From Liolophura sinensis (Eukaryota; Mollusca; Polyplacophora; Chitonida; Chitonidae): a stretch of 64,000 nt of DNA. The stretch's first letter is position 1, and the number at the start of each line of letters is the position of its first letter. Of the stretch, positions 18,386 through 61,597 are shown in pieces. The notes beneath the pieces are model-generated. The model made no database searches, was not told the DNA's origin, and saw only the letters and a program-made list of their open reading frames with translations. Made by a program: the position numbers and the translations under genes. The stretch is from positions 12,947,335 through 13,011,334 of the forward strand of contig NC_088297.1 of NCBI RefSeq assembly GCF_032854445.1. Direction: 5' to 3'.

Positions 18386-18541
18386 ATCTGAAAAGTATGG
18401 GTGTGTCGCTGGAAAGAGTACAGTTCAAATTTGCCTCTATTATTGGTGAACTCTGCAGCGACCCAGATGTTTTGTCACAGTTCGCAGTGTGGTTAGATCT
18501 CAGGTTGGCAGAGTATAAATTAAAAGGTGCCATATCGTTAG
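18386..18541 (+). CDS. constant exon A of the modular terminal-exon gene (proposed start exon)
   Basis: The acceptor is AAAAACAG before 18386, and the ATG at 18397-18399 has a good Kozak context (A at -3, G at +4). It encodes 48 residues, including GELCSDPDVLSQFAVWLDLR, and leaves one base (G) at donor GTGAGT. No in-frame stop lies between the acceptor and the ATG, so an upstream coding exon is possible, but I see no candidate between the RPS8 start and here. I do not recognise the domain; it looks like a short amphipathic helical segment. The phase (one base over) fits exon B exactly. Support is splice-site and frame logic, not homology. Confidence 0.65.
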
Positions 18542-18623
18542 GTGAGTAGCACTGAATGTTGTACCAGTATCAGTATAAACTTTATTAGTCATTTGTATGT
18601 ATTCGAGGAAGAATGCCTAATTG

Positions 18624-18893
18624 TTTTGGGCTCAGTCGCTTAGCGCACTAGCGCAGCGTAATGACCCAGGAGTCTCTCACCAGTGCGGTCGCTGTGAGTT
18701 CAAGTCCAGCTCATGCTGGCTTCCTCTCCGGCCGTATATGGGAAGGTCTTCTAGCAACCTGCGGATGGTCGTGGGTTTCCCCTGGGCTCTGCCCAGTTTC
18801 CTCCCACCATAAGGCTAGCCACCGGCGTATAAGTGAAATATTCTTGAGTATTGCGTAAAACACCAATCAAATAAATAAATAAATAAATTAATT
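18624..18893 (+). mobile_element. SINE-A copy, full length
   Basis: tRNA-like head (GGGCTCAGTCGCTTAGCGC, box B GAGTTCAAGTCC), body, and tail ending in AAATAAATAAATAAAT. Confidence 0.9.
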
Positions 18894-18938
18894 GTTTTAG
18901 TGCAGTGATGGATTTTTTATTTTTGGAAATGTCGTGGG

Positions 18939-19092
18939 ATTTATTTATTTATTTGATTGGTGTTTTATGCTGTACTCAAGAATATTTCACTTCTATGACG
19001 ATGGGAGGAAAACGGGCATAGCCCGTGGAAACCCATGACCATCCGCAGGTTGCTGGCAGACCTTCGCACTTACAGCCAGAGAGGAAGCCAGT
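18939..19092 (-). mobile_element. SINE-A copy, partial, inverted relative to its neighbour
   Basis: Tail and body. It ends about 60 bp before the exon B acceptor. Confidence 0.85.
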
Positions 19093-19154
19093 TCCGGATC
19101 CTACTTTCTGGCAGAGTCTTCTGATGGGTAATTTCCTCATTTTTCTTTGTGCAG

Positions 19155-19883
19155 AGTGTTCTGGGGAAGAACCTGATCCTATCTGGTTGAAAGGTTTGAA
19201 CAAAGGTAGGCGAACGATCAGTTCAGCTGAGAAGGTCACGCATCCAAGGTTTGAACGACGTGAACGAAGACGTCTCAGTGGTGACTCTTCTTCTCGCAGC
19301 ACCCATGGAGCCTATGACCCCGCCCCCAATCCTCTGTCCCGAGACCTTCTCGACTTCCAGCCCCAGGATGTCTCGCTGGACCATCATCAGTCGAACTCTC
19401 CGGACATTGTTGTAGTAAAGGAAGAGTCCACAGGCGTTTTCCCTGTCAGTTTACATACCCACGTCAACACAAACTCTAACGTACCAGGAGGCAGCAGTCA
19501 CAAGCGGAGCCCTGCATTCGACCCTTATTCCAGCAACACCGATCACTGGTCTCGGGATTCGTACGGACAAAGTTCAAAGCGAAGACGAACGGCTGAAAGC
19601 GTCGACTCACCATCCAATCAGAGCCTCATGTCAGTTTTGGGCGTCACAGATACCTCAGAAACAGTTACGAGCGCAATGGGTGACACACCTGTGGTGCCGT
19701 CCACCTCAAGTGACGGTGTTACTTCTCCCGTAGCAGGCACAAGTACTATTAATCCACAGGTGGAAGTTTCAGCTGATTTTACAGACACTTCTCAAAATGA
19801 CTCACAGTGCTTTCAAGACATGAGCTGGATCAATAACTCTGCCATGAGTGCTGATAACAATGACTCAGGTGCCAGTCCAAATG
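19155..19883 (+). CDS. constant exon B of the modular terminal-exon gene
   Basis: Acceptor TTTGTGCAG, donor GTAAGT after AATG. It completes the split Glu codon from exon A, adds 242 codons and leaves one base (G) for the next exon. The product is hydrophilic, Ser/Thr/Asp-rich and probably disordered. Basic clusters ERRERRR (about residues 82-88) and SKRRRTAE (about 189-196) look like nuclear localisation signals. VVVKEES (about 134-140) contains a psi-K-x-E SUMOylation consensus. There are many SP sites. I recognise no folded domain. As the only sizeable constant segment, it would carry regulatory and partner-binding functions shared by all isoforms. Alternative: it could be a simple two-exon gene with read-through to a stop at 19909. 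Confidence 0.78.
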
Positions 19884-21828
19884 GTAAGTTGGATTTTATG
19901 ACTTTTTAGCTTGCCTACTCTGGATTACCACTTGTATATTGAGGCCATCCTTAAAAAAATCTTTGTTGTAAAATTGGTGTGGTCTATTGAAAAAAAATTT
20001 CCATCTAGAAGCCTAATACAATCTCCACAGTAAGGTTATACCCAACAAACATATTTTTAATGATGGCCAGGCCAAAACTGGCCATTCGATATGCTACATA
20101 TCCCATTCAGGATTTGATCATTGGACACAAGAAGATTTCCTTTATATAAATGTATGTATGACTGTTTTTGGGGTTTATCACGTGCTAAAGTCAAAGAAAA
20201 GACTAAAATAAAGTATTTATGAAATGCAATTAAAACATAGGATTCTATGGTGTTGGGACCCAGAAGGTATCAGTGACGTCACAGCAATATGTTTGGCTTG
20301 AAATAGTTTGTTCCAAGGTCCATTTGGTGAATACATTCATAGCTCTAAATGAAGATGCATTTTGGATGAAGAAGTATAGCAGTCTATATGTGTGTCAAGT
20401 TGCAAAAAGCTGAAGTGACATCACTGGTCAGAAAAGGCCACAGTAGAATCCAAAAGTTTTAAATACATTTACTAGGCCAAAAAATTTTCTAAAAAATAAA
20501 TCGAAGTCTTTTCCCAAACAATATTTAATCTTACATGGACTTTGTGCTAGTGTGTTCTTCACCTTTAAAAAAATCGTGCAGAGAAAGCTGAACGCGGTGA
20601 TGTCCTGGTGAGAGTATTATTATCAATTCATTTGGCTTGCTTTCGTTTGTACTATCCCCGACAGTCAACACTGTAACATGGAGTGTGATTGGTTCAACAG
20701 TAAATTCGAGTTGACTGGTCAGTTTTCTGGCTGACTATTGCCATGAGACCCTACAATCCATTTTCAGAAAGTTCATGCCACGAACAGAATGCAATTAGAA
20801 CCAGTTACAGAACCAGAATGCCGTCAAAATCTCTCCGTCTTACTGGGCTTTCCAGCGTTTTTCTTTGTTTGCTTTTCAGAAGAAAATTAATTCCTAAGAC
20901 ATCGTTTTGACAGTGTAGAAGATTTTTCAAAGTTCATGGTTTCATTCATAAATCATCACGCATACTTAATCAGTCAGTCTGAGAAGAAGACGTGTAAGAC
21001 TGAAACTCACATGACAGCCTCTTGTACATGTAGGTCGTTGTTTGCTGTTTGCCTCTTGGTTTATTTTGTCTCTGTACGTGTTGAAGGTATACCAACCCCA
21101 ATGGAGACATGATAAGTATTTATGATAAATTTGTACTACGCTTGTTCTCTACTGGCAAGACAGTATATGTACATGCGGGTTAGTATGTTGCGTATGTACT
21201 CATGGACAACAACTTGTTCGGTGCTTGTCGAAACTTTTGCTTCGTAAGGCCATAATAAAGCCACAATCATGTTTAAAATACAAAAAGAATTTAAAGCACG
21301 TATAGAGGACAATTTTCAGTACAGTTGAATTATTATATTTTAGCCTGTCCTATTGGTCCCACTTTCCATATTCTGTGCAGTGCTACATGAAGTCTGTTAT
21401 ATCTTGTTTCAACACGTACATTTATTAAGCATGGGTGTCTTGCTGTTTTTTCTAGCAGAATTACACAATTCCATCCCACTGCCAATGTTAAACCCACTCG
21501 TTTGATGGTGTCTTGTATTTATGTGTGACTTTGATCATGTTTACAGCATATGTACTTTGTTTCAAATCACTTGTGAAATGCCATTATTTTGAGATTCTAA
21601 TGCCATCCTTGTCAGAAAATGAATTCAAATGGGTACCTTTACCGGTAACGAAATTAATATTTTCTATCCACATGCCAACTACATGTACATCTGCTCTTGT
21701 TTGCCGTATCATGAATTTGATCACAGTTTGATCTCAAACTCCCCTGTGGTGGTTGTGACAAGGATAGGTTTTGTAAATGTCATCCTTGTTGTATGAACAA
21801 AGTTTTCAGTGTATTCAATGATTTATTT
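19884..21828 (+). other. intron, nothing recognised
   Basis: AT-rich intron sequence between constant exon B and the first terminal module. I see no additional exon. Confidence 0.5.
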
Positions 21829-22160
21829 ATTGGTTTGCTGTACATGTATTACGCCATACTCAAGAATATTTGACTTAGACGACGTCGGCCAGCATTATGC
21901 TGGGAGGAAACCGGGCCAGAGAGGAAGCCAGCGGATGGTCGTGGGTTTCCCCCAGGCTCTGTCCGGTTTACTCCCACAGTAATGCTGACTTCGTTGTGTA
22001 AGTGAAATATTCTTGAGTACGACGTAAAAAAAACAATGAAATAAATAAATCCAACAAGGTTGTTATGGCAGCTCTCACTGTTGACGTCACCGCAGCAGGC
22101 TAGTTAATATCCGGACTGACTGTTGGGGCATAAAATACCAATCAAATAAATGAATAAATC
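21829..22160. mobile_element. composite of SINE-A and repeat-C fragments
   Basis: A minus-oriented SINE-A tail and body (21829-21930) runs into a plus-oriented body and tail (21930-22052), then an inverse repeat-C fragment (22058-22140) and another SINE-A tail. It reads like nested insertions. Confidence 0.6.
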
Positions 22161-22889
22161 AAGTCAGGTTTTTAAGGATAAAGTGCATAGTTTGTCTGTA
22201 AAGCTACATATACAATGCAGGCCCCGGTTCAAGAGATGAATTCTCAAGGTTTTTTGAAGCCATCTCAGCACTTTGCAGATAATAGGTATTTTGAGTGAAG
22301 AATTCACAGAATTTTGAATTTTGTTTTATTTTATTAAGTGCATTGGGGCTTGATGATGTACATACTAGATCTTATAATCTTGAATAGATTCTCCACTATC
22401 CTGTACTTTAAGATCGTGTACACGTAGGTCTCTGTGGTATCCAGAACATTGGTCGGAAAAGTACTCTTTCTAAAAGAAAAGACAACACTAGACCAAATGT
22501 GTATACTCATCAATAAAGTATTCTGTGTAAAGTTTGAAAAGCAAATCTTTTTATTTTTGTTGATGTTGCATAAGCAAGATGTCGCAGTTGAAAGGAAGCA
22601 AAATTGCACCATTGCGAAAATCGAAAGCGCCACCATGTTATCAGGTTTAACCAGGCAGGCCCAGGTATAACCCAAGAATGCAGTTATTTGTCCATATGTG
22701 TGTTGGGTTGTGAGAAGCGACATTGTTTTTCTGATTTCCGATTGGTCCAACATGGCCTATTCCATGACCTCATAAGAATTCCAGATTAAAACTTGATTTA
22801 TAGAGTAGAGTTACATGTATGAAGTACTTCACACAAAAAAAATGGCTGTGGCAGTTAAGGTCTGCTTTCAACCCCTCTTTTGAAAGAAC
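22161..22889. other. intron, nothing recognised
   Basis: No supported exon. Open frames on both strands here lack domains and splice context. Confidence 0.45.
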
Positions 22890-23855
22890 TACATGAATGG
22901 TTGCATTATCTGTGGTCATTTCTGCATGTGTGTTTACATTATCTGTGACCATTTCTTCATGAATGTTTGCAATATCTGTGGCCATTTCTACATGTTTGTT
23001 TACATTATCTGTGGTCATTTCTACATGAATGTTTGCATTATCTATGGCCATTTCTACATGAATGTTTGCACTATCTGTGGCCATTTCTACATGTATGTTT
23101 GCATTATCTGTGGACATTTCTACTTGAATGTTTGCATTATCTGTGGCCATTTCTACATGTATGTGTACATTATCTGTGGCCATTTCTACATGAATGTTTG
23201 CATTATATTTGGCTATTTCTACATGTATGTTTACATTATCTGTGGCCATTTCTACATGAATGCCTGCATTATCTGTGACCATTTCTACATGTTTGTTTAC
23301 ATTATCTGTGGTCATTTCTACATGAATGTTTGCATTATCTGTGGCCATTTCTCCATGTATGTTCGCATTATCTGTGGCCATTTCTACATGAATGTTTGCA
23401 TTATCTCTGACCATTTCTACATGAATGTTTGCATTATCTGTGGCCATTTCTTCATGAATGTTTGCATTATCTGTGGCCATTTCTACATGAATGTTTGCAT
23501 TATTTGTGGCCATTTCTACATGAATGTTTGCATTATCTGTGGCCATTTCTACATGTTTGTTTACATTATCTGTGGCCTTTTCTACATGTTTGTTTACATT
23601 ATCTGTGGCCATTTCTACATGTATGTTTACATTATCTGTGGCCAGTTCTACATGAATGTTTGCATTATCTGTGGCCATTTCTACATGAATGTTTGCATTA
23701 TCCATGGCCAATTCTTCATGAATATTTGCATTATCTGTGGCCATTTCTACATGAATGTTTGCATTATCTGTGGCCTTTTCTACATGTATGTTCACATTAT
23801 CTGTGGCCATTTCTACATGTATGTTTGCATTATCTGTGGTCATTTCTTTTGAATA
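22890..23855. repeat. 33-bp minisatellite, about 29 copies
   Basis: Unit of 33 bp containing TGTGGCCATTTCTACATGAA and TGTTTGCATTATC. Because the unit is a multiple of three and lacks stops in several frames, long open frames exist on both strands: plus ...CIICGHFYMNV and minus ...VEMATDNANIH. I regard these as repeat artefacts, not proteins. Confidence 0.92.
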
Positions 23856-24256
23856 ATCATGGGATTGGGAGGTTTTACCATCTGGTGATGGCTCTATTAA
23901 TTGGCAGATATGTATACTAGATATACTTATGTACACCCAGTACATGTAGGTGCCTTCCTCGAGATGTTGTCTTTGTGTGGAAGAAAATGTTGCTATTGTT
24001 AGTCAATATGAAGGCAAACTGCTGCTACTGAAAAAATATAATTTTGTCAAGTGCAAAAACTTTTTATTGTTTTTTTTTTGTTCAGGGTATAATAGCCATT
24101 GTTTTTCATTGCAAGGTCATTTCAAGGTCATAACTTAACATGCATTGTTGTCTTTAGTCATGTTTAAGAAATTCCAAGAAGTCAGAAGTCAAAAGTCTTG
24201 AGCTCGGCACCTAAATATGGAGGTTTTCATCTGTTATCGTGTCTACAAAACAGAAA

Positions 24257-24291
24257 CAACTGCTACAGTTAAGACTTATTTTTGTTGTCAG
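24257..24291 (+). promoter_or_regulatory. 35-nt intron end identical to the one before module C2
   Basis: The last 35 nt before exon C1 (pyrimidine tract, acceptor, and a small stem AACTG-CTA-CAGTT) match 28967-29001 at every position, although flanking intron and exon sequences of the two copies have diverged. Confidence 0.8.
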
Positions 24292-24740
24292 CTTCGAGCC
24301 ATTCCGTTACGATGGTCACCAAGATATTGCCAGCTATTCATCGCCGCCAAGATACATTCACGATATCAAGGGAACAAGCCAACCAGAGTCGGAAGTCTAA
24401 GATATCTCGAGAGCGATTGGCTGTTATTCCTCGACAAACGCTGACAAGCATGGCAGCTGCTGTGGGAACATTTGAGCGATGGTTGTGGCAGAAATATGAT
24501 GAGGAGAAGCGAGGAATCACAGATTTACCACCTGTGGAACTAGACCAGTACCTTGCCGAGTTCTTCAAAGAGATTCGGACGCCTAGCGGGGCAGATTATA
24601 AACTGGAATCCTTTGTGAGACTGAAGAGTTACTTGGGGCGGTATCTGAAAGAGACTAAGTATCCGGAGCTACTTAGTTGCTCTCCTGTGTTTCAGACGTC
24701 CCATGAAGCATTCAGAGCCCGAAAGTATTTATTACGCTGA
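24292..24740 (+). CDS. terminal module C1: Crypton/ZMYM/QRICH1-type N-terminal domain exon
   Basis: The acceptor TTTTTGTTGTCAG precedes 24292. CT completes the G left by constant exon B as an Ala codon. It contributes 149 residues and its own stop at 24738-24740. The segment from FERWLWQKYDEEKRGITDLP through ELDQYLAEFFKEIRTPSGAD to SYLGRYLKE resembles the domain N-terminal to the tyrosine-recombinase fold in Crypton-derived proteins (ZMYM2-4, QRICH1, KIAA1958). That domain is related to the core-binding, DNA-contacting domain. No catalytic Arg/His/Tyr domain follows, so it cannot be a recombinase; DNA binding or dimerisation is inferred. An AATAAA occurs near 25236. Confidence 0.85.
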
Positions 24741-24799
24741 ATGCATGTGTATAGCACACAAACGTGTGTGTCATGGGAAAAGATTCCTGAACCTGGGCA

Positions 24800-25340
24800 G
24801 TGATGAGAGTGATAGTGATAAGGATAACGGTGACAATGATGGTGATCATGGCAGTGGTGGGGATGATGACAGTGGCGGGGATGATGGCTATGAGGACACT
24901 GATGGTGACAATGGCAGTGCTGGTGATGATGACAATGCTGGTGATAGTGACAGTGATAGTGATGATGGCAAAGATGGCAAATGATGGTGATAATGGCAGT
25001 GATGGTGATGATGGCAAAGAGGGCAGTGATGATGGTAGTGGTGTGATGATGATGACAACCACGGTGATAATGGCAGTGATGAAGGTGATGGCAAAGATGA
25101 TGATGATAACCAGTGGTGGTGATGATGGCTATGATGACAGTGCTGGTGATAATAACAGTAATGGAATTGATGGCCATGATGACAATGATGGTGATAATGG
25201 CAGTCGTGGTGATGATGGCAAAGATGACAATGATAGAAATAAAATGGTGATATTGATGGTGGTAATGGCAGTGCTGATGATATTGATGGTAATGGTGCTG
25301 ATGACAGTGATTCCAGCAATTGAAAAGGCATTGAATGGCA
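24800..25340. repeat. GATGGTGAT-rich low-complexity repeat
   Basis: Degenerate GAT/GGT triplet-rich sequence directly after the module C1 stop. Similar material follows module C2 at 29520-29835, which indicates it was duplicated along with the exon. Confidence 0.85.
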
Positions 25341-25384
25341 GGAGTGTTGAAAGTAATGTGTACCCATCGCTGATGCCTTAATAT

Positions 25385-26915
25385 GGCACAGTAAACTCTT
25401 TGTACTCATGACTGATGCCACAGTCAGGCACAGTAAACTCTGTATGAACATGGTTGATGCCACAGTCAGGCACAGTAAACTCTGTGTAAACATGGTTGAT
25501 GCAACAGTCAGGCACAGTAAACTCTGTGTGAACATGGTTGATGCCACAGTCAGGCACAGTAAACTCTGTGTGAACATGGTTGATGCCACAGTCATGCACA
25601 GTAAACTCTGTGTGAACATGGTTGATGCCACAGTCAGGCACAGTAAACTCTGTGTAAACATGGTTGATGCCACAGTCATGCACAGTAAACTCTGTGTGAA
25701 CATGGTTGATGCCACAGTCAGGCACAGTAAACTCTGTGTGAACATGGTTGATGCCACAGTCAGGAACAGTAAACTCTGTGTGAACATGGTTGATGCCACA
25801 GTCAGGAACAGTAAACTCTGTGTGAACATGGTTGATGCCACAGTCAGGCACAGTAAATTCTGTGTGAACATGGTTGATGCCACAGTCATGCACAGTAAAC
25901 TCTGTGTGAACACGGTTGATGCCACAGTCATGCTCAGTAAACTCTGTGTGAACATGGTTGATGCCACAGTCAGGCAAAGTAAACTCTGTGTGAACATGGT
26001 TGATGCCACAGTCAGGCACAGTAAACTCTGTGTGAACACGGTTGATGCCACAGTCATGCACAGTAAACTCTGTGTGAACATGGTTGATGCCACAGTCAGG
26101 CACAGTAAACTCTGTGTAAACATGGTTGATACCACAGTAATGCACGGTAAACTCTGTGTGAACATGGTTGATGCCACAGTCAGGCACAGTAAACTCTGTG
26201 TGAACATGGTTGATGCCACAGTCATGCACAGTAAACTCTGTGTAAACATGGTTGATGCCACAGTCAGGCACAGTGAACTCTGTGTAAACATGGTTGATGC
26301 CACAGTCATGCACAGTAAACTCTGTGTGAACATGGTTGATGCCACAGTCATGCACAGTAAACTCTGTGTGAACATGGTTGATGCCACAGTCATGCACAGT
26401 AAACTCTGTGTGAACATGGTTGATGCCACAGTCAGGCACAGTAAACTCTGTGTGAACACGGTTGATGCCACAGTCAGGCACAGTAAACTCTGTGTGAACA
26501 TGGTTGATGCCACAGTCAGGCACAGTAAACTCTGTGTGAACATGGTTGATGCCACAGTCAGGCACAGTAAACTCTGTGTGAACATGGTTGATGCCACAGT
26601 CAGGCACAGTAAACTCTGTCTGAACATGGTTGATGCCACAGTCAGGCACAGTAAACTCTGTAAACATGGTTGATGCCACAGTCATGCACAGTAAACTCTG
26701 TGTGAACATGGTTGATGCCACAGTCAGGCACAGTAAACTCTGTGTAAACATGGTTGATGCCACAGTCGGGCACAGTAAACTCTCTGTACCCATGGATGAT
26801 GCCACGGTAGGGCGCAGTAAACTCTTTGTACACATGGTTGATGCCACAGTCAGGCACAGTAAACTCTCTGTGATCATGGCTGATGTCACACTCAGGCACA
26901 GTAAACTCAGGCCTT
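25385..26915. repeat. 42-bp minisatellite, about 36 copies
   Basis: Unit of 42 bp containing CACAGTAAACTCTGTGTGAA and CATGGTTGATGCCACAGTCA. The unit length is a multiple of three, so long frames stay open on both strands (for example minus FTVPDCGINHVHTE and STMFTQSLLCLTVA in another frame). I see no splice context or domain, so these are not called as genes. Confidence 0.93.
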
Positions 26916-27054
26916 GAATTAAATCTACTGAAGCAACTTAAGCTACTCTTTTTGAAGACATTTGTTTTCTAACATCTTTGGAATGGCCTAAAGCACTGCT
27001 GTGTACATGTACATGCGCAAGACTGAAAATTCCACTAATTAAGGTCATTGTCAC

Positions 27055-27168: not shown

Positions 27169-27169
27169 A

Positions 27170-38515: not shown

Positions 38516-39116
38516 AGAAATTGCGCCTGATAATTGATGGAAGTTGTGTTCTATTTGGTTAAACATTTTAATTGTGCCTGCATAATGTTCAATTTCAGTT
38601 TCACGATTTGTGTTTCAATATATGAAACATCAAATTTGTTTAATTTGGTATAAATATGCAATGTTTTATTTGATAAAACATTAAGTGTGTTTAAATATAT
38701 AAGACTTATATTGGGCTTAATTTGGTTAAGGACAGAAGATACTTTTTTGCACGAACGTTTGAACTTAGCAAACAACGCTCTGTCGAGGCACTGTGTATTT
38801 TTTATCACATCAGGCATGATGTGGGGCCCTTGGTGACAAGAAGTTGTCAACAAAGTTCATGTGTCCATTTGCTCAGTCAGACTTTCTTTGGAGGCCATTT
38901 GTCTGACACTCCATTTTCCTCCTTCCATAAAACTGGCCGCCATTGAATAAGGGGAAAATTGTTCACTACTGTACAACGAAATATACAAAGTAAATAAATA
39001 AATAAGTTGCATAGTGACACCTCCAAGTTGGCGGAAGCTCAGATTAAAATTAAAACTTTTGTAGTACTATACTGGCTGTGGGCTATATGATGTAATAGGT
39101 TTGTCATCTAAGACAT

Positions 39117-39770
39117 ATGTGTCATCTGGGACATGTGTGCTGTCTGGAACAAGTGCTATGGGGGACATGTGTGTCAACTAGAACAAGTGTGCTATCTGGG
39201 ACATGTGTGTCAACTAGAACAAGTGTGCTATCTGAGACATGTGTGTCCACTAGAACAAGTGTGCTATCTGGGACATGTGTACCATCTAGAACAAGTGTGC
39301 TGTCTGGGACGTGTGTCAACTAGAACAAGTGTGCTATCAGGGACATGTGTGTCAACTAGAACAAGTGTGCTATCTGGGACATGTGTGTCAACTAGAACAA
39401 GTGTGCTATCTGGGACACGTGTGTCAACTAGAACAAGTGTGCTATCTGGGACATGTGTATCATCTAGAACAAGTGTGCTATCTGGGACATGTGTACCACC
39501 TAGAACAAGTGTGCTATCAGGGACATGTGTGTCAACTAGAACAAGTGTGCTATCTGGGACATGTGTGTCAACTAGAACAAGTGTGCTATCTGGGACATTG
39601 TCATCTAGAACAAGTGTGCTATCTGGGACGTGTATCATCTAGAACAAGTGTGCTATCTGGGACACGTGTGCCATCTAGAACAAGTGTGCTGTCTGGGACA
39701 TGTGTACCATCTAGAACAAGTGTGCTGTCTGGGACGTGTGTGCCATCTAGAACAAGTATGCCATCTGGAA
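39117..39770. repeat. 36-bp minisatellite, about 18 copies
   Basis: Unit of 36 bp containing CTAGAACAAGTGTGCTATCT and GGGACATGTGTGTCAA. The unit is a multiple of three, giving open frames on both strands that I do not regard as genes. Confidence 0.92.
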
Positions 39771-41568
39771 CATCTGCATACTTCTTTAACTGGAAACTTT
39801 GATAATAAATTCGGACTAGAATTCCCTTCAATCCAGTGTTTTTATTCTCAGGAATGTGTATTGTCGCAGAGAAATGAAACCTTGAATTAAATGTTTGTTT
39901 GAGTGCCAAAAGTAATATTTTGTGATATTTGTATCTATCTGGTAGGAACACATTTATCCAGAGAATCACACGTGCAGATGTAAATAATAGAGAAATTATT
40001 TGCCTTGCTGTCACACGAGGACCATCTGGCTCAAATAGAAGCTGCCTTGCACGAGGAATGGCAGCGATTTCCCTTCAGAGTATCAGGGGGCTGACAGGCG
40101 GTATGAGGAGAAGAGTTCAGGCTGTCATTTAGGCTAACGACGGATACACCCGATATTGACCTAAAACGCTTTAAGAGATACCAAATGACCAAATACCGCC
40201 ATGCTGCATGTTACGTAAGATCCGCATTCCGTTATGGGAAATCATGAACAGTTAACTGGTCAGTTCAAATGAATGTAATGGTCAAGTTACCCTCTAAGTC
40301 AAGATTAAATGAATTCGCTTAAATTTCTATTTCTAAAATAGGTTGCTCTCACTTAAAGACTTCGTGAGAAAGCTGTTAATCGTAGCTCAATACGTTCAAC
40401 GGCATCTCAAAAATATTTGGAATCACCGGCCTGAAATACACCGAAAATTCATCCGTTATATCCAAATTGAAATCCTTTTACGACATCATATATTTGACCA
40501 TGCAATAGGGAGCGTGTAAAGTTTTAATGTCTTTGTCAGTGTTTGTGCATGTAACTGATATTTCTCTACATGCATGTCAAATATTCAGATGTACCCGTCC
40601 ACTGGTGTTTGAGAAAATGGTTAAAGGTCTGACTTGAAATCCAATATGGCCTCCAAACTACGTGACCAAGAAAAACAAACTTTAAAAGCCATTAAGATAA
40701 TACCCGCGAGTATTTGGTGGCTAGATTTCAAACAGCTGCGATTTGTAATTTTCTAGAGAAAATGACAAAAAGTAATGACCGAAAAAAAAAAAACCCGAAA
40801 TATTCCGAGTAAGAACAAGAGATTTCCAGCTTCAGCTTGTGACCTGATTATTTACGGGTCTTTTGCCTTTTTCTGACAGCATTTGAATCGACTTTGTTAG
40901 TTTCCCCTGTCTGAAAGCTTGCTGGAAGAAAGGGCATAAAATAATAGAAATGATCACCGCCGACTGTAAGTATGTCCAACCACAGTTTCGAAGACTTTCC
41001 CAGGAGGAGTTTTCACAAATTTCTTTGACATTGTTTTTCAGTTCTTTGCATGTTAATGAAATCTGTCGCCTTTGTTTATATCAACTCCCAGCGTTACTAA
41101 AAGAGCTGTGAAAGTGACAGGCGTTAGTTCTTGTAGGCTTTTAACATTCACGCTGTACCTTGATTTGGCACAAAAAGACAGTTGTTGTGTTAATTCACAG
41201 ATTGCGGATTTATTTTCGACTCGATGTCTTGCACGCATGAGTTGCCTTTTTGTGTAATCAGTATTCTTTATGGCTGTGAAACCCACTTCACCATTTGCGA
41301 TAGCATCGTACCAGTAGCATCGTTCAAGAATTTTCAAGCATCTCGGACACACTCTCCATTTTAAAAGTGACCAAGAACTGGAGGAGTGCTGCAGTCTTCA
41401 GAACATCCAGCCTAACAACATTTGTCACGTGTTGGTTACTTGGTTACAATATACCTGTTTCCAAATTTAATTATAACTTATCTTGGTATTTTTATGTTTC
41501 ACGTGCACACATATTGACAAATGAAAATGTTCCCGATCTAGCATTTACTTGTATTTTGTTGGTTTCAG
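39771..41568 (+). other. intron, nothing recognised
   Basis: No supported exon. A 99-codon open frame on the minus strand (41053-41352) shows no domain or splice context. Confidence 0.45.
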
Positions 41569-41834
41569 ATCCGGCCAAAGTTTACCACTCGTGTGACGTG
41601 TGTAATCAAAAATTCACATTCAAACGTAATCTGCGACGTCACATGCTCATGCACGATCCGATGATGTCATGGAAAGTTTTCAACTGTGACGTATGCGGGA
41701 AGGTTTTCACGCGCTCGGATAAATACAAGCAACACGTGAGGTCCAAACATGGACATCTACAAAACGCGATGCTTCAGTCGAAGAATGTGCAAGTGTCGGA
41801 TTCTGGTGCTAAACAATCGGAACCGTTGTTTTAG
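41569..41834 (+). CDS. terminal module Z1: two C2H2 zinc fingers
   Basis: The acceptor GTTGGTTTCAG precedes 41569. AT completes an Asp codon after the constant G; 88 residues, stop at 41832-41834. Finger 1 is CDVCNQKFTFKRNLRRHMLMH (C-x2-C-x12-H-x3-H written as one motif of 21; core FTFKRNLRRH). Finger 2 has CDVCGKVFTRSDKYKQH with H-x4-H spacing (HVRSKH). Between them is a short DP-containing linker. Helix positions -1/+3/+6 are F/N/R and R/K/Q. A polar 30-residue tail follows. Role: sequence-specific DNA binding in the nucleus as the C-terminus of one isoform. Confidence 0.9.
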
Positions 41835-42465: not shown

Positions 42466-42991
42466 TTGATAAGATGTAGGTCATTTATATTTACATGTAT
42501 ATCGTTATAGCAGGTCAGTTTTTGTGATTTATATTTCTCGTATATCTTGGGAAAAAACAAACAGAGCAAAAGCCATGGAAGCGATAGGTTACATTGAGCA
42601 TATTAGAACACTTGTGGTTGGTGCATATCTTTTCGTCTATTGAACATTTAAAAGTGTGTATATTATGGTATGAATATATCTGAGTATATGTGAATGATAT
42701 GCTGCATGATTATTAAAAACAGTGATTGATTTGGGGGGTGGGGTGGGGGGGTGGACATTTATACTCACAGTCTGTGATTTTAACTCATTTTGTTTTATCT
42801 GCCTGAACTGAACATATTAGAAAATAATTTCACGAAGGAAATTATTTCTTGCTTTATTGTGATGTGGTATGAAGTGTCTGACTGACTGAACAGTCACAAC
42901 TGCGCATGCCACTTTCAAATTTGTATGCGATATCATTGAACAGCATGTTGTAACTGGGCGTGATGGTGACAGTGTATTTAATAGGCGATGA

Positions 42992-43385
42992 AGACGAGAG
43001 TACGTTTCTTTTTTTGATATAATAGTTCGAGAGTACGTTTTTCGGATGTAATAGTTCGAGAGTACGTTTTTTGGATGTAATAGTTCGAGAGTACATTTTT
43101 TGGATGTAATAGTTCGAGAGTACTTTTTTGGATGTAATAGTTCGAGAGTACGTTTTTTGGATGTAATAGTTCGAGAGTACGTTTTTTGGATATAATAGTT
43201 CGAGAGTACGTTTTTTTTTGATATAATAGTTCGAGAGTACGTTTTTTTTTTGGATATAATAGTTCGAGAGTACGTTTTTTGGATGTAATAGTTCGAGAGT
43301 ACGTTTTTTGGATGTAATAGTTCGAGAGTACGTTTTCTGGATGTAATAGTTCGAGAGTACGTTTTTTGGATGTAATAGTACAGAA
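42992..43385. repeat. 29-bp minisatellite, about 13 copies
   Basis: Unit of about 29 bp containing TAATAGTTCGAGAGTACG followed by a T run of variable length and GGATG. The slippage-prone T runs change the frame between units. Confidence 0.9.
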
Positions 43386-43673
43386 GTATGTTTAGAGCAG
43401 TATTCACATGAAGGATTTACGTTCCCGCCTAAAGTAATTTAGACCAAAGCTATGTAGCATATTGTTCATTCTTGCTCTGACGATGACGATTTGTTGGCAA
43501 ACTAGTACTGCAGTAAGCCTCTACACTCAAAACAGTATGACACTTGGCATATTTAGGAAACATGCAAATTTTCCAACTATAGACAATGTGCAGTAACTTA
43601 TAGATACACTATTCCCACAAACTCGGGATCAATATGGCGCCTTAGCCTCAGATCTCATCGCTGTTCTTTTGTA

Positions 43674-46726: not shown

Positions 46727-46933
46727 GTGGCTCAATTGGTTAGCGCGCTAACACAGCGTAATGGCCCTGGAGCCTCGCACCAATGCGGTCACTGCGAGTT
46801 CAAGTCCAGCTCATGCTGGCTTCCTCTCCTACCGTATGTGGGGAGGTCTGCAAGAGACTTGCGGATGGTCGTGGGTTTCCCCTTGGGCTCTGCCCGGTTT
46901 CCTCCCACCATAATGCTGGCCGCCGTCGTATAA

Positions 46934-47727: not shown

Positions 47728-47915
47728 ATTCTTCTGCCGGTTTAAAATACACCTGTGATATATGCGGCCAAATGTTCACCATGAAACATAACCTGAAGAG
47801 ACACCAGAAGATGCATGATCCGGGTCGGGCACAACAGACATGTAACCTGTGCGGCGCCACCTTCTCAAGGGCAGACAACTACGCCAGTCACATGAAGAAA
47901 AAACACGCCGATTGA
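47728..47915 (+). CDS. terminal module Z2: two C2H2 zinc fingers
   Basis: The acceptor TTCTCCACCACAG precedes 47728. AT completes an Asp codon after the constant G; 62 residues, stop TGA at 47913-47915. Finger 1 starts CDICGQMFTMKHNLKRH, finger 2 CNLCGATFSRADNYASH with H-x4-H. Helix -1/+3/+6 residues are M/N/R and R/N/S. The protein stops four residues after the last zinc ligand. Its pyrimidine tract directly follows the tail of a SINE-A, so the branch point probably lies in SINE-derived sequence. It is the last plus-strand module. Confidence 0.88.
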
Positions 47916-49640: not shown

Positions 49641-49642
49641 AC

Positions 49643-50175
49643 GGGTGTTTCCTGAGAACATGGACCCTGGAGTTGTCAGAACACAACACGACTGGGCACA
49701 CACTCTGGGTGTTTCCTGAGAACATAGGCCCTGGAGTTGTCAGCACACACCACAAATGGGCACATACTCTGGGTGTTTCCTGAGAACTTGGACCCTGGAG
49801 TTGTCAGCACACACCACGACTGGGCACACACTCTGGGTGTTTCCTGAGAACATAGGCCCTGGAGTTGTCAGCACACACCACAAATGGGAACACACTCTGG
49901 GTGTTTCCTGAGAACATGGACCCTGGAGTTGTAAGCACACACCACGACTGGGCACACACTCTGGGTGTTTCCTGAGAACATGGACCCTGGAGTTGTCAGC
50001 ACACACCACGACTGGGCACACACTCCTGGTGTTTCCGAGAACACGGACCCTGGAGTTGTCAGAACACAACACGACTGGGCACACACTCTGGGTGTTTCCT
50101 GAGAACATGAACCCTGGAGTTGTCAGCACACACCACTACTGGGCACACGTTCTGGGTGTTTTCTGAGTACATGGA
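49643..50175. repeat. 64-bp minisatellite derived from the 3' end of module Z3
   Basis: About eight units spaced exactly 64 bp (starts at 49643, 49707, 49771, 49835 and on). Read on the minus strand, each unit encodes versions of DNSRVHVLRKHPE, the end of zinc finger 2 of module Z3 (DNYKVHVLRKHPE). The array is therefore an expansion of the coding end of that exon. Confidence 0.88.
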
Positions 50176-50349
50176 CCTTGTAGTTATCTGCTCGTGAGTA
50201 CCTGGAGCTGCACCACTGACATTGTATGAACTTATTGGCGGATTCTGGGTCGTGCACACTTTTCTCGTGTCTTCTGAGGTTTCTTTTCATTGTAAACTCT
50301 TGCCCACATATTGTACACATGTATAGCTTCCCGGTTTCAATCCCAGCAT
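50123..50349 (-). CDS. terminal module Z3: two C2H2 zinc fingers (minus strand)
   Basis: The acceptor TTGCTTTTTAG precedes 50349 on the minus strand. AT gives an Asp codon if joined to a G-ending exon; 75 residues, stop at 50123-50125. Finger 1 is CTICGQEFTMKRNLRRH with an H-x4-H end (HEKSVH). Finger 2 is CQWCSSRYSRADNYKVH with HVLRKH. Helix -1/+3/+6: M/N/R and R/N/V. After the last His the frame runs PERVPSSGVC into the first unit of the 64-bp repeat, so the C-terminus is set by repeat sequence. Strand is opposite to the only constant region in the window. Confidence 0.87.
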
Positions 50350-53480: not shown

Positions 53481-53484
53481 TTGA

Positions 53485-53560
53485 TTTATTTATTTGTCTG
53501 ATTGATGTTTTACGCCGTACTCAAGAATAGTTTACTTATACGACGGCAGGCTGCACTATG
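53485..53560 (-). mobile_element. SINE-A tail fragment
   Basis: Tail plus a few body bases, ending at CTGCACTATGG. Confidence 0.65.
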
Positions 53561-55241
53561 GTTGGGGGGTGGGGGCAGTTTCCCTATGTCTGTCACAGTC
53601 GCTTTTACGTTGTCAAATTCTAAGGCACTTGTGGAAGGTAATAGGTTTTGCCATACAATAACCTGGTTTTCTCCACTCATCATACATTGATCGCCATGTG
53701 TCAGTAAAATGTAAACTTCAGTAGGCCTACATCAAGCAAAAACAAACATATGCAAGGTTTTTTTTTCCTTTGGCACGAGAACAAGGACAAAATAAGTTTT
53801 AAAGAACTTTGAGTTTATTTTTATTATCAACAAACGTCATAATAATACTTGCACCAGTAATATCATCATGCCCGGGTATGTAATGGATGAAAACGGTTTC
53901 AACCCGCGCAACTGATGAACCGAAAGGTACACAAATACGACAAATACACACAGTTAAATATTTCTGTTTCTTAAAACGTTATCTATTTGATATGTGTAGG
54001 CCAATTAAAGATTATAAAATCATATACACATAATTTGAGCAATCATGTCCTTTCAATTGTTTCATATAAACTTTCATTGCAATTTCAGCACTATACATCA
54101 AGAACACTTGAACAATAATGTAATACATTTGTCTGTCCCGATTAAAACGAATTAAAACAAACATAACTGATTAAAAAAAACGTGTTTAACATTCACCTTA
54201 ATTCCACAACGTTTACATGAACAAAGCGTTTGGCCATGATAAAACTGACAATTTATGTAGATTTGACATACGGGACAGTCATAAAAATTACACGAAATTC
54301 GATACTTTTTTCGATGAATAACACTTTTATACACGATAAATGTTTCCAAACACTTAAGAAAGCGTGTACTGTTTGATTTATTATAACAGAACTAATGCCA
54401 ATGATAAACATAGCTGAAAAGTGCGAAGGTACAAACCTACTTTGTCATAATAATTATCACCATGAACACATTAGACGCTTTCTTTCTAATGATGTTTCGA
54501 TAGACTACCCTCCATATACAACACAAAATATATGCAGACATCTGTGTGAGCAAACCAAGATTTGTTCTTCAAACGGTCAAAACAGATACAATCGCAACCG
54601 GCAATAATGACGGGGTTGGCATGGAAACATACGCATTACTTAACTGTAGATAAATGCCCACATTTGGGCAGATACTTCCATCAACACTAAGGGCATTCAG
54701 ACAGGAAGTCACGTCACAAAAAAAAATAAAAATCCCGATCTCGTCTTCTGTATCTATTTATAATTCATACCTACAGGTTTCTGTTAATCCAATGAATGTA
54801 CAACATTACTCCAACGGGCACTGAAGTATTTTGACTAATGAATGTTGATTATATCTAACCGTGAGAGGTCCTACAAGACCAATAGTGATGATACCGGACC
54901 TTAAGATGACCACGTGGGTCAATTTTTTTCCAATAGTGACTGGGGTGCAAAGTGAGCGAAGAAACCGGCGCAGGCGCCAGGACAGTTTAACAGTGTAATG
55001 CAACCATGTAATCATGTAGCTGTAATCATCTAGCCGTCATCTAATTCAACTTCAAAGAATAAACTTATAAAATGTTTCTTGTTCTCAATTCAGGGATTTT
55101 AATCGAATGAAACATTTCTGCTGCCTGATTATAGGTCTATACAATATCTCACAAATTCATAAAATTCTTGAGCCAAATGAAATGATTCTGATCCGCCGAA
55201 GGCAATTCCTTTTAGAGTGTCACGGGAATAGTCTCTATAAT
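53561..55241 (-). other. no supported feature
   Basis: AT-rich. The small cysteine-bearing frame at 54152-54349 (minus) lacks zinc-finger spacing and splice context. Confidence 0.4.
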
Positions 55242-55444
55242 TCAAACTCCTTTGTGTTTCGATGCCATATGAGCCTTATACTTGTCAATCCGAGAGAAAA
55301 CTTTCCCACAAGCCTGACACTCAAACACTTTGGATGACGTCCTAGGCTCGTGCATGCGCTGATGACGTCTAAGATTTTGCTTCAGCGTAAACGTTCGACC
55401 ACATACGTCACAGCGGTGAGGCACCAAAGGGGGATAATCACCAT
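55242..55444 (-). CDS. terminal module Z4: two C2H2 zinc fingers (minus strand)
   Basis: The acceptor TTGTGTTTTGCAG precedes 55444 on the minus strand. AT completes an Asp codon in phase 1; 67 residues, stop at 55242-55244. Finger 1 CDVCGRTFTLKQNLRRH, finger 2 CQACGKVFSRIDKYKAH followed by MASKH. Helix -1/+3/+6: L/N/R and R/K/A. The linker carries the HEP motif also seen in module Z5. It ends five residues after the last His, as in Z2. Confidence 0.9.
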
Positions 55445-56937
55445 CTGCAAAACACAACAAGGGCACCAGTTCTAAAATGTGGTCAATGAACCGTTTTTAA
55501 GCCAGTCACAAAGTAAAAAAAAAACAACATCGTATTCCACATATAAAGGATCGCCTCGTAACAGTACATATAAAACGACGAACTTGTGCGGCCTGCAGAA
55601 TGAAGGATTGTGGCTTACCGCCACTTCGGCAAAACGGTAGGCCGTATAAGGCGTGGTGATGAATCATTTGTATACGGTTGTTAGTAAAATTACTGATTCA
55701 CTTTGGGCTTCAAGCAGTGAATTTTCAACCTGAAACGACACACCGTTGCTAAATCTCGCTCTATTGTGACAAGAATTTCTGAACTTCAACATACATTTTC
55801 GCCAGTCATGAATGAGTGAATGATAGACAATGCCCTCAGTCTTGATGATCATAATATAATCTAGAGTCTTAATAAGTGAAGCATGCAGTTGTTCAAACAC
55901 GTTGTTGACATGAAACAAAAAAAAACATCACAAAGGGAGAGCGACTTCATATTTTAGCTAGATACGACTCGTTCTCCACGGATGCAAGACAAGGTCAAGG
56001 TCATCATACATGTGCGACCGTCATGGCAGGGTAAACAGCAAACAACGTCACTAGACTTCGTGTTAATGATCTAAATATACACAAATACACTATAATGCAT
56101 GTAAAACCGGTCATTGCTGACGGGGAACAAATATCTCCAACACTAAGTGGACACGAAATACACTCTCTTATGTTAATGAAGGGAATTACCAAAAGGAAAA
56201 CAAAACTTCCTCAAATAGGGATGCGATCCTTCTCTTAATTGATAATTGTTTGGATTGTATATTTCATCAGAAAATTTCTCCTGACTTTCGAGATGCAATG
56301 TACATATGCAATGTAAACCAAACATTCAAATGTATGTGCAACAGCATTATGACATCACAGTGTGAAACTGAGACACTCTTTTTTATTCATTTATGTGAGT
56401 GAAATTTCACACCGAACATAATCTTTTCACGTAAATCACCTAAAATTCACCAAAAAGTGCAATAAATGTAATTGATAAAATATTACTTTTGGCGCCATTC
56501 AGCAGGAAATCATTCCACTTTCTAAACAAACCTAAACCATCGTTCCAAGATCAACACTCTCAAAATCAGGAAAAAGAGCAACTCGTGTCATGAAAGAAAT
56601 TTTGGGTCATTTATAATGAGGATCAGACGGTTGCCCAGAAAACAAAAATGAGATCCATGAAATAAAGAAAACTGACATGGCGTGCAATTTGTCTTTATAT
56701 AGTACAGATAAACATTTTTGTAACCACTTTTTAAGTACAAAAGCGGATAACTAAGCCATAAATGCATAATCGCCCAGAAAATAATCTTTAAAAAAAATGC
56801 TATTTTCCATTGTCCACCACAAGTGGTCAACGATTTGACAAGTATAAATGCAGAACCGTTAATCATGACCTTACGCCATTACGCCGTGGCAACACAAAAA
56901 CAAAGAACCAAAATATTATCGTTCATACACACAAGTG
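55445..56937 (-). other. no supported feature
   Basis: Would be intron between modules Z5 and Z4. Nothing recognised. Confidence 0.45.
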
Positions 56938-57064
56938 TATTTATTTATTTGATTGGTGTTTTACGCCATATTTCACTGATACGACGGCGGCCAGCATTAT
57001 GGCGGGAGGACACCGGACAGAGCTCGGGGGAAGCCCACGGTCATGCGCCAGGAAGTCAGCATGG
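56938..57064 (-). mobile_element. SINE-A copy, partial
   Basis: Tail and shortened body in inverted orientation. Confidence 0.75.
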
Positions 57065-57489
57065 ACAAGCGTATATAATGCCCACTACGAATGCCACATT
57101 AACATTATTTTTAAGAAGTTATTTTAAATAACGTCCAAAGCCAATCCACGTATATTTCCAAACGGTTTATGTTTGGGTTGTTCACATGTTACGTCATCAC
57201 ACAAACCATATACAAAGGTGTAGTCTAAAACATGGGAAGCGAACGCATTTTTGGTCAGTGCACGATACATGTTCACATTAGTATTCTATTCATTCACTCC
57301 TGAACAACGAGTGTCATAGCATCTAGAAAGGTTCAAATATCTATTACCCCCATCATAACCTAGTCCTCAGATACCTCCAATAGCCAGATCCAAGATACAT
57401 CAGCACCAAATATGCAAATGCAAACTATATCCTACCCGTGGATTGCTCAAATACATTCGGTAAGAGCCTAACGCTATTTGTGTCGAGGC

Positions 57490-57695
57490 TTACCATTGGT
57501 TGAGCCCGTCTTGGGCGTGTACCTTGAGCATGTGTGCCTTGTAAGTGTCGGATCGGCTGAAGGTTTTGTCACACGTGTGGCATTTGATGACACGTGGTGA
57601 GGAGTCCGGCTCGTGCATTCTCCGGTGACGGGAGAGATTGTTTCTCAGTGTGAATGATCGGCCGCAAATCGGGCAAGAGTGTTTTTGGCTTTGAT
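57490..57695 (-). CDS. terminal module Z5: two C2H2 zinc fingers (minus strand)
   Basis: The acceptor CGCCATTTCAG precedes 57695 on the minus strand. AT completes an Asp codon in phase 1; 68 residues, stop at 57490-57492. Finger 1 CPICGRSFTLRNNLSRH, finger 2 CHTCDKTFSRSDTYKAH followed by MLKVH. Helix -1/+3/+6: L/N/R and R/T/A. HEPD linker as in Z4. It is the first zinc-finger module after C4 on this strand. Confidence 0.9.
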
Positions 57696-58526
57696 CTGAA
57701 ATGGCGAATGGAAGACAAGATATAAGGACGAGATCGAGGATGTATGATCGGACGCACAGGGACAATTTTGCTACGTTTTATATTTTCGGGTGCTTCTCAG
57801 AGACTTCGGGAAGTAAAATGGGCCGTATTAAAAGACATTTAAGCTGAAACCATACACCAGTAAGGACGAGAATTTATGACATTTAGGGTTGCGGTTCATG
57901 CAATGCGACAAACCCATTCTCCAAGAGAATTTCCTTCCAATGATAGTTCGCCACGGTATGGCAAATATAGTGCCGAAGTCGAGTTAATCAGTATAATCAT
58001 TAATTCATTCACAACGATATAGGACTGAAAAGTGATATTAACACGGGTCTATGGTCTATACCTTGTAAATCTCTCTCTAATGCCTGATTTCAGTCCGACG
58101 TATTTTATTTTCACATGTTCTAAATTAGGTATTAGGATCAGCCAATTTGTCATTTCAGAATGTTTCCTTTCTTTTCATTATTGCAACGAGTAAAGTGCCT
58201 TTCAATTACATCGGGTTTCAAAGTAACGTGCGTCAACGCCTACCCACATCCAAAGCCATAATTTTTGTCTTCTCCATAATACAAATTATATAATGGTTAT
58301 CAAAACATGTAAGTCAAAGAAGTAATGCCACAGTGCTCAAAGTATTAGCCCATAACGACCACGAGCCAACAGATGAAGTATGGCTGCTTTTTTTTTATTT
58401 ATTTATTTATTTTTTTTTTTTGGCAGTTTAAGAATTCACTTGCAGACTATTGTATTTCACTTTTAAGTTCATCGTTTTGAAGTGAGACATTTTGCCTCTT
58501 TCTGATTGATTCATCCACCTTATAGG
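57696..58526 (-). other. no supported feature
   Basis: AT-rich, with a T-rich low-complexity stretch at 58388-58422. Confidence 0.45.
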
Positions 58527-58765
58527 GATGAGTGCTTGTGGTTTAACGTCGTACTTAACAATTTTTTCAGTCATATGACAACGAAAAAATCCTAAGACAG
58601 AGCCCGAGCCCATCCCGAGCCCGATACGGGTCAACCAGTCTTTGCACTATCCCCTTCATGCTGAATGCCAAGCGAGGAAGTAACAACTTCCTCTTTTAAG
58701 GTCTTAGGTGTGACTCGACCCAGGATTGACCCTGGATCTACCGCTCCCGAGGCGGACTGCATCTT
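58527..58765 (-). mobile_element. SINE-B copy with an internal deletion
   Basis: Both ends are present (GTGCTTGTGGTTTAACGTCG at left; the tRNA-like end around CCAGGATTGACCCTGGATCT at right), but the middle is shortened. Confidence 0.7.
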
Positions 58766-59164
58766 ATGGGGAAAGGAAATCTGATTCATTTCTTAGCAGA
58801 AAAAAGTGCTGATATGAGAAGTATACTTTTAAGGCCTTCTGAAAGTGCATTTTTATATACCAAACATTAGGAGAAATACACTACATAAATTTATACTAAT
58901 GGTGTTTAAAAATGTTTAATTTTACTACCGGTGTCAGTTTCATGAGTGGGAAATTGGAGTGCACCGGTAAACCACCAACCCTGTGACACACTGATCTCCA
59001 ACGAAATGTATTTCGTTTTGGCATCTAGGTAGGGAGCTGGAGGGGTATATAGAGAATTCCCTGCACCAAGCCGGGAATTACCGCGTGCCCTAGTGGTTTG
59101 GAGAAAAACGCGTTATGCACCCCCCCCCCCTCCCCCCAACTAGATTCAAGACTATCTCAGTTTG

Positions 59165-59410
59165 CTAGGGCACAGGAGCCTCTTATTGTTGCAACTGCTT
59201 TAGTTCAAGTCCACCGGCTTCCTCCTCGGTCGTACGTGGAAAGGTCTTCCATCAACCTGCGTCCAGCATTGTGGCGGGAGGGAAAGGGGCTGGCACCGGG
59301 AGACAGCCACAATCGCCCGTAGATTGTTGACAGATCTTCTCCCGTACGACTACGGAGAAAGTCAGCACGAACTTGGACATGAAATCACAGCGACCGCATT
59401 TGTAAAAGTC
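59165..59410. mobile_element. degenerate SINE-A fragments in both orientations
   Basis: A plus-oriented head and body piece (to about 59260) runs into a minus-oriented body and head piece ending at CACAGCGACCGCATT. Confidence 0.5.
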
Positions 59411-61085
59411 TCCTGAGAGCTATTTCTCAAAGCGACCCCTTTGACAAACAGCTCCCTGAGTCACAAAGCTTACATGTAACAATCCACTAACGTACCTGTA
59501 CAACGTGACTGTCACAGGTTGTCCCATAATTCCCGTGATCTGATCAATCAGCACTATAAATGCTTCAAATATGAAAAGAGTACAGCAGAGAGAGTAAAAC
59601 CAGAGCAGTGACGACAGTGTTCGCAATAGATCACAAGTATTAGTATCGGTGAAATCTGACTACTTGTCAATTTACCTCAGTTAGGGTTTTATTTCAACTG
59701 TTACTGTGTATGATGATACAACATTCAGTGATATTAGCTGCAAATGATAAGACATAGTTTAGAATATGATCACATACAATTTACATATTTTATACTCTAC
59801 CTAAGCCTAAAACAGGTAAACAATACAGTCTGGACGCAATCGTCAAGTCTTTCAGCGACAACACATCATAAAAATATAGCTCGTAAAAATCTACACAAAA
59901 CCCTTAATAAATTTATCTCAGGACTGGATTCTAATACACAAAAGAGACGTGAACGTCATGACTTTTGTGACTCATGATAATTAATATGCACAGCGGGCAT
60001 CAACGATGAAACATGACCCTAATGTTATTAGGCATTACATGTATGCAGACCTCTGCTCAATACATATGCAGGACTCCTTGAGATACCAAGAAGGTATCAT
60101 AACATTTTCCTTAAAGTGTGCATGGAAATGTAATTAAAATTATGGGTTTAAATGAAATGAAGAAAATTACAACAAAAATATATCATATTTCTAATAAAAA
60201 CCCCTGTATTTTATGAATATTTTTCGTCAATGGTAAGAAATTCTTGGAAATGACGTCATTGATGAAATTACTGGAAACGCGGGGCGAGCGCAGCACCCAA
60301 CTCCCACAAATACATTAACTCAATCAATCACTTCTTTGAAAGTTTATCTTTTTCCACGTTTTAATATAATCAAGTATATATTTCATTCTCGTGGGTCGAT
60401 TTACATTTCTTTCAAGAGTAAAACCATAGATTCAATTCAAACCTTGAATTCCTATAGACCCTGACTAAGATGTATTGAATGGGCAAGTTTCTGGCCTAGT
60501 GAATGGTCCAAGACTGTAATCTTGAACCACACAGCTTACAGTTGTAATGTTTTCCGGTTTCGGGTCTAGTCAATGGCCATCATAATGTAGTCATTACGTC
60601 TAAAACTCCAAGGCTGTAATCTTCCACCACACAACTTAGTTTTAATGTCTTCCGATTGATCTCACAGATCACAAATTTGATGCTTTGAACTTTCCACTTG
60701 TAACATTACAATGTCTTAAACTTATGAAGAAATAAATTCAGCACAAAAACTCGTTCCCATGCCGATTGAAACACACCATTCTCCGCCACGGTACCACAGT
60801 GCTTATGCACTACCGCTCTGCTTTTCGAGGTCAACAATACAGGAGCAGTGATCATATATTACAGTAAAGAACACAGGATTAACCCAAATGGACAAACTGG
60901 AATTAGGGGGGATGCGTTCCCCATAATTACTCCGAACTTCATTACCATTAATTTCTGCTAAATTGTCCGCCACCGTAGTACAACAGGGCGACATCCTATG
61001 CGAAGTGATTTGTTTCATTGCACCGAAAACGACAATACTAATAACGAAAAATGTATCTCAAGCCAGAAGTTTTACTAGTCACTCT
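59411..61085 (-). other. no supported feature
   Basis: Would be intron between modules C4 and Z5, plus the 3' UTR of C4. Nothing recognised. Confidence 0.45.
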
Positions 61086-61597
61086 TCAGCCAACGTACTC
61101 ATGTTGTGGCTGAACCATCTTCTCCACTGCCGCGTTACGCTGGAGAATAGACATGCGAAGTCTGAAGGCTTTACTGGCAGCTGAAAATGGGGTTGACGTG
61201 ATGATGGATTCGGGGTAACCCGTGGATTTCAGATAACGATCGATGCCCCACCGGAGGGACTCTAAGGATCGTGGTTTGTAGTCAGCCCCGCTAGGAGTCT
61301 TGATGCAAGAGAAGAACTCTACCAAGTACCCATCCAAGACGGACGCAGGAATTTCAAACACCATTCTCTTATCGCCGAAACTGGAATTTGACCACAACCA
61401 GCGCTCAAATGTCGCGGCTGATACCACCATGTTCTTCACGGTGGTTTTGGCCAAGCTGTCAATATCTCGGATGTACGTTCGTCTGACTTTGTTGGACACG
61501 TGACCTCTGAGAACGCCGTCCATTGCCAGGTTGCTCTGATCACTGCCCAGTCCTTCGCCGTCATTCGACATGGCCAGAGGTGAGTCCAATACGGTAG
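61086..61597 (-). CDS. terminal module C4: Crypton/ZMYM/QRICH1-type N-terminal domain exon (minus strand)
   Basis: The acceptor CTCTTTCGTTGCCAG precedes 61597 on the minus strand. CT completes an Ala codon in phase 1, as in C1; 170 residues, stop at 61086-61088. The leader is acidic and Ser/Gly-rich. The domain core follows: TFERWLWSNSSFGDKRMVFE, LDGYLVEFFSCIKTPSGADY, then LRWGIDRYLKSTGYPESIIT. It shares FERWLW and TPSGADYK with C1/C2 and IDRYL-x-x-x-x-YP with C3, so it is intermediate between them. No catalytic domain. An upstream in-frame Met (61628) exists in the intron sequence, but the acceptor logic is stronger. Confidence 0.85.

Follow-up and report, generated by a model that had tools for sequence, protein, structure and literature searches.

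Does a single constant N-terminus serve nine interchangeable terminal exons in a mollusc genome? The question is raised by a stretch of 64,000 nucleotides of the chiton Liolophura sinensis (the window), in which a reading of the sequence alone (the original prediction) saw a locus like lola and mod(mdg4) of Drosophila. The window corresponds to C3:12947335-13011334 in the assembly searched here (609,464,459 bases in 632 contigs); C3, C1, C7 and C6 before genome positions denote contigs, and C1–C4 are also the names of window terminal exons. Five of the nine ends lie on the plus strand and four on the minus strand, the latter with a constant exon pair (A' and B') of their own, and the idea of one N-terminus for all nine was therefore abandoned. 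The window contains one gene (gene 1) and part of a second (gene 2), convergent paralogues that each have their own constant exons. From the sequence, a conserved start appears to be joined to any one of several ends.

Constant exons, terminal exons and splice phase

The coding part of exon A of gene 1 (18397..18541, plus strand) starts with the ATG at 18397, encodes 48 residues with two predicted helices and ends at TTAG|GTGAGT in phase 1. Exon B (19155..19883, plus strand, phase 1-1) is serine-rich, ends at AATG|GTAAGT and contains a psiKxE motif (VVVKEE) as well as basic motifs; a model made on a sister protein indicates that it is probably disordered, and the exon has 15 matches in the genome. 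At each of the two donors a single G of an open codon is left, exactly as had been predicted. Both constant exons of gene 1 were scanned with sequence profiles only; no Pfam family matched either of them at E up to 1, and no BTB domain was detected among these profiles.

Gene 1 has three terminal exons of the recombinase core-binding (QRICH1/Crypton) type, each with its own stop: C1 (24292..24740), C2 (29002..29462) and C3 (36106..36596). Two with C2H2 ends follow (41569..41834 and 47728..47915), all on the plus strand. Those of gene 2 within the window are on the minus strand and comprise three C2H2 ends (50123..50349, 55242..55444 and 57490..57695) and the recombinase-type exon C4 (61086..61597). 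All nine have an AG acceptor followed by two bases that complete the open codon, and all carry their own stops. When exons A and B were spliced in silico to 24292, 29002, 36106, 41569 and 47728, proteins of 440, 444, 454, 379 and 353 amino acids were obtained; in each join the frame was open, with one stop, at the end.

The agreement in phase is beyond chance, because the best-scoring acceptor was in the matching phase for 31 of 34 terminal exons from two fetched regions (the nine of the window all among them, which bears out this part of the original prediction), as compared to 167 of 413 control open reading frames that overlap no family exon. A first control, from which the family's own exons had not been excluded, yielded 75 of 127. 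The three exceptions do have a matching-phase site, with a lower score. The scoring was automatic and home-made, and no more than 11 of its 34 chosen starts could be recognised in RefSeq isoforms. A Myb/SANT-like fragment (47466-47137, minus strand) was considered as a further end and rejected, its score being under the cut-off.

Organization of gene 2

The minus-strand exons at 50349, 55444, 57695 and 61597 face a second constant pair at 78–81 kb in window coordinates, which are also used for features of the right flank, beyond the window. On the minus strand of this flank lie exon A' (80703-80559; 48 codons, 80703-80560), exon B' (78800-78124) and three further recombinase-type exons (near 68.3, 72.1 and 74.8 kb). 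Exons A and A' encode the same 48 residues and differ at 11 of 144 bases; the identity of B and B' is 39–43%. The order is A, B, recombinase-type ends and C2H2 ends in both genes, with 3 + 2 ends in gene 1 and 4 + 3 in gene 2, of which the window covers four and the right flank three. As assembled, the reading frame that runs from A' into B' breaks just past the beginning of B', and none of the 100 database matches listed was recognised as a product of gene 2; for these reasons the gene may be damaged or its sequence misread. The matched part is free of stops in all seven gene 2 ends.

Annotated isoforms of sister genes

The protein matches listed (100 in total) comprise 99 RefSeq entries of Liolophura sinensis and one other, and the counts below are minimum values among these matches. 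When at least 100 shared N-terminal residues are required, at least 83 of the 100 proteins fall into 15 groups with two or more members, five of these being pairs. Within each group all pairs diverge at one junction, within three residues, and every tail is distinct; the largest groups have at least 17 and 16 distinct ends, and RefSeq isoform numbers in the family run up to X31. For LOC135463662, six isoforms were mapped, and each joins A and B to a terminal exon that differs from those of the other five. For LOC135463739, the tails of five of seven isoforms were mapped, and P0013 and P0066 were unmapped at the limits used. In the gene models and in the reading frames, constant exons at the 5' side continue in a single phase into alternative 3' ends with their own stops. 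The proposal of one N-terminus with swappable ends of unrelated fold, outside the insects, is supported by these multi-isoform sister models and by purifying selection where it is measurable (see below).

Nature of the ends

A profile of the recombinase-type end matched 88 of the 100 listed proteins. The Pfam family PF25561 was found in the four recombinase-type ends of the window with E values of 6e-6 to 1.4e-3, all under the curated cut-off. Among 53 sister proteins scanned, 36 matched it at E up to 0.1, the best value being 2.7e-7, and the precomputed annotation has it in 8 of the 100 listed proteins. The predicted structure of C2 (mean predicted local distance difference test score, pLDDT, of 89.7) has the Cre/QRICH1 fold, and the closest solved fold is that of QRICH1 in 9hjt. 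According to this model, the recombinase-type ends are of the tyrosine-recombinase core-binding fold, as in Cre and QRICH1, and the term 'Crypton-type' of the original prediction holds at the level of the fold. The catalytic tyrosine recombinase (YR) domain, DUF3504, was not matched in 53 proteins (E up to 0.1) or in the four window ends (E up to 1), and by these profiles the ends are the core-binding part only. A sequence search of the PDB with a recombinase-type end gave no match, and no phage record matched C2.

The C2H2 ends scored 45.7–51.1 bits against PF00096 (cut-off 25.2), with two stretches in each of the four window ends scanned; the fifth (50349) has the same motif by alignment. 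Ends of other folds were found in LOC135463852. Besides two recombinase-type ends it has one CENP-B/Tc5 end (CENP-B_N, E 4.9e-9; HTH_Tnp_Tc5, E 3.2e-16), and a fourth end weakly resembles BEN (E 0.0011, under the cut-off); BEN domains are perhaps also present among the ends. The CENP-B exon (C3:8887982, plus strand) lies between an exon A (8878637) and the recombinase-type exons of that gene; it has three other copies in the genome, two of them with stops. C2H2 and CENP-B are established DNA-binding folds. The claim that the ends bind DNA is likely to be correct for these two types, and for the recombinase-type ends we only infer it.

Selection

Selection tests covered exon A and the recombinase-type ends. 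For C1 versus C2, the ratio of nonsynonymous to synonymous substitutions per site (dN/dS) was 0.083 (dS about 1.0, 124 codons). Between exons A of genes 1 and 2, dN was 0 at a proportion of differing silent sites (pS) of 0.34, and among five copies of exon A dN was 0 to 0.046 at dS values of 0.37 to 1.3. The identity of exon A thus reflects constraint rather than recent copying, as dN stays near 0 despite this silent divergence. For 26 recombinase-type ends the median pS was 0.80, most pairs being saturated at silent sites, and the five closest of the 325 pairs gave dN/dS values of 0.08 to 0.31. Where it is measurable, selection is estimated to be purifying.

Distribution in the genome

Exon A has 45 matches in the genome at E up to 1, every candidate being scored, of which 35 are on C3, 7 on C7, 2 on C1 and 1 on C6. 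Recombinase-type ends were searched twice with different query ends (best 150 of 284 and best 150 of 289 candidates), and the union of both searches contains at least 200 exons. Each of the 200 found has an exon A of its own strand upstream, within 94 kb and with no other exon A in between; when strands were randomised (500 trials), a mean of 142 and a maximum of 161 obeyed this same-strand rule. By the same rule, at least 37 of the 45 copies of exon A have one or more recombinase-type ends among the 200 found, and the largest arrays hold at least 27 and at least 23 ends. Because the genes are crowded, the exon A of any kind closest to an end was that end's own upstream copy in no more than 129 of 166 cases, and a neighbour's copy in the other 37.

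For the C2H2-pair exons, 16 matches were obtained at 1e-10 (best 150 of 818 candidates). Ten of these obey the same-strand rule within 100 kb, and one does so at 107 kb. The other five are on the minus strand of C3 at 2.36–2.38 Mb, without an exon A of their own strand. This stretch (L031-L033, C3 2361000-2382500) is largely an inverted duplicate of the C2H2-end array at 2.18 Mb, with ~96% identity across pieces 6 and 4 kb long. A stop is present in one copy, and in another a finger cysteine has been replaced by serine. Ends severed from a constant exon seem to decay. The orphan ends were considered as evidence of trans-splicing and rejected as such, the stretch being largely a decaying duplicate.

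Ten pairs of neighbouring exons A lie head to head within 40 kb, eight of them within 10 kb (contigs C3 and C7), which suggests that they share two-way promoters; the pair of the window is arranged tail to tail, unlike these ten. Two divergent copies of exon A, 55–59% identical, were found at C1:70529200-70533200 (L029) and C1:79757400-79761400 (L030). Their exon B sequences are of another kind, and nearby no recombinase-type end was found; possibly these are founder genes. A frame behind exon A of L030 that looks like a helix-turn-helix gave no Pfam match, and a 60-residue search with a divergent exon A of chromosome 1 found no candidate for wider kinship. A further contig contains a sequence that nearly matches one of the two copies, at 43 of 44 residues.

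An exon A profile built from 12 sequences matched 11 short proteins from other contigs, in which 38–44 of 44 residues match, against 33 of the 45 Liolophura N-termini. The two that match at 44 of 44 may be Liolophura itself. Together with P0003, which is 76% identical to exon B and is the sole non-RefSeq entry among the 100 listed matches, these sequences suggest at least one related genome.

Probable mechanism and alternative explanations

We propose as the probable mechanism that one start is spliced in cis to one of several terminal exons on the same strand, the shared start providing partners and regulation and the end providing the target. Three observations weigh against this proposal: only one RefSeq model was found for gene 1 (A-B-47728; P0001, LOC135464124), the terminal exon at C3 2159038 is split, a decayed end, and the orphan C2H2 copies (L031-L033) are decayed ends elsewhere in the family.

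Terminal exons, singly or in small groups, could instead have their own promoters and be joined by same-strand trans-splicing, or be separate genes. Some ends have an internal methionine, and the acceptor exons of mod(mdg4) do have promoters of their own, according to PMC12692577. However, the same-strand downstream rule is what cis-splicing requires, RefSeq models span exon A to one end, and all five gene 1 ends continue the frame of exon B, which makes this alternative quite improbable. A further alternative is that the plus-strand A/B pair serves the whole set of nine and reaches the four ends on the minus strand through trans-splicing. This would fit their single phase and the acceptor exons reported on both strands of mod(mdg4) (PMC12692577, PMC4667647), but it is very improbable, since the minus-strand exons have an A'/B' pair of the same strand on their 5' side and all 200 recombinase-type exons found share the strand of their upstream exon A; the five C2H2 exons that depart from this pattern lie in a stretch that is largely an inverted duplicate, partly decayed. 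Trans-splicing of all nine ends was rejected on the same two findings, and trans-splicing is unnecessary for the window ends.

The recombinase-type ends may contact DNA directly, as in Cre, or, like the QRICH1 complex (9hjt), dock on zinc-finger proteins. In vertebrates, zinc-finger factors are kept on DNA by Zincore, to which the recombinase-type domain of QRICH1 belongs. The chiton family seems to produce both QRICH1-type and C2H2 ends from a single gene, after a common N-terminal pair of helices that hardly varies. An unlikely extension is a partner system in which isoforms would pair via exon A and recombinase-type isoforms would dock on the C2H2 isoforms, or stabilise them, on DNA, giving a combinatorial code that draws on more than 200 ends in about 45 genes. 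In such a system the SUMO-type motif of the constant part would point to silencing, perhaps directed at the transposons that gave the ends.

Comparison with known systems

For lola, 20 isoforms are described, 17 of which have different C2H2 fingers (PMC11426971). Common N-terminal exons followed by many alternative C-terminal exons are shared with the chiton family. In contrast to the BTB start of lola, no BTB domain was detected in the chiton exons A and B; the chiton family also mixes ends of unrelated fold, has about 45 exon A loci, and its recombinase-type ends found are all same-strand. For mod(mdg4), PMC12692577 reports one constant N-terminus with more than 30 alternative 3' ends, every isoform being trans-spliced and the acceptors lying partly on the opposite strand; its domains are BTB and mostly FLYWCH (PMC12692577, PMC4667647). 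The chiton family shares the constant N-terminus with alternative 3' ends, but has same-strand order, another N-terminus and other ends. The likeness to lola and mod(mdg4) concerns the way of working; kinship is not supported, as exons A and B have no Pfam match at E up to 1.

The genes QRICH1, ZMYM, WOC and KCTD1 derive from Cryptons and contain a domesticated tyrosine recombinase (PMC3212892). By fold, the chiton ends likewise correspond to the core-binding part of such a recombinase; unlike in these genes, the domain is an alternative exon with at least 200 copies, and no DUF3504 was found in the 53 proteins scanned. The CENP-B/Tc5 end of LOC135463852 resembles host–transposase fusions, in which the captured domains are not, as in the chiton, alternatives of one gene. 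In such fusion genes, reportedly described by Cosby et al. in 2021, transposon DNA-binding domains are joined to a host N-terminus. Among the papers listed in searches of one open-licence PubMed Central library, without preprints and most subscription journals, no description of recombinase-type domains as exchangeable exons was found.

If transcripts confirm the present reading, the strategy of lola and mod(mdg4) has also evolved in a mollusc, there with a different N-terminus and at the scale of a family, with end folds that are mixed and apparently come from different transposons. It then becomes testable how transposon DNA-binding domains turn into interchangeable modules of host regulators, whether same-strand splicing is enough for such loci, and which function a recombinase core-binding domain has when the catalytic half is missing; the structure of vertebrate QRICH1 poses this last question as well.

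Other elements in the window

The Rfam search at gathering scores gave no match. A transposase piece in the intron between C2 and C3 (32551-33690, plus strand) matched Pfam DDE_Tnp_1_7 (E 8e-50, profile positions 105-349 of 349) and is of the piggyBac type. Long intronic minisatellites at 22884-23852, 25357-26937, 39112-39802 and 42817-43416 produce spurious long open frames. Similar repeat copies with a ATATTTCACTT-like core, probably a short interspersed element (SINE), occur on both strands near 18640-19110, 21850-22040 and 46800-46930.
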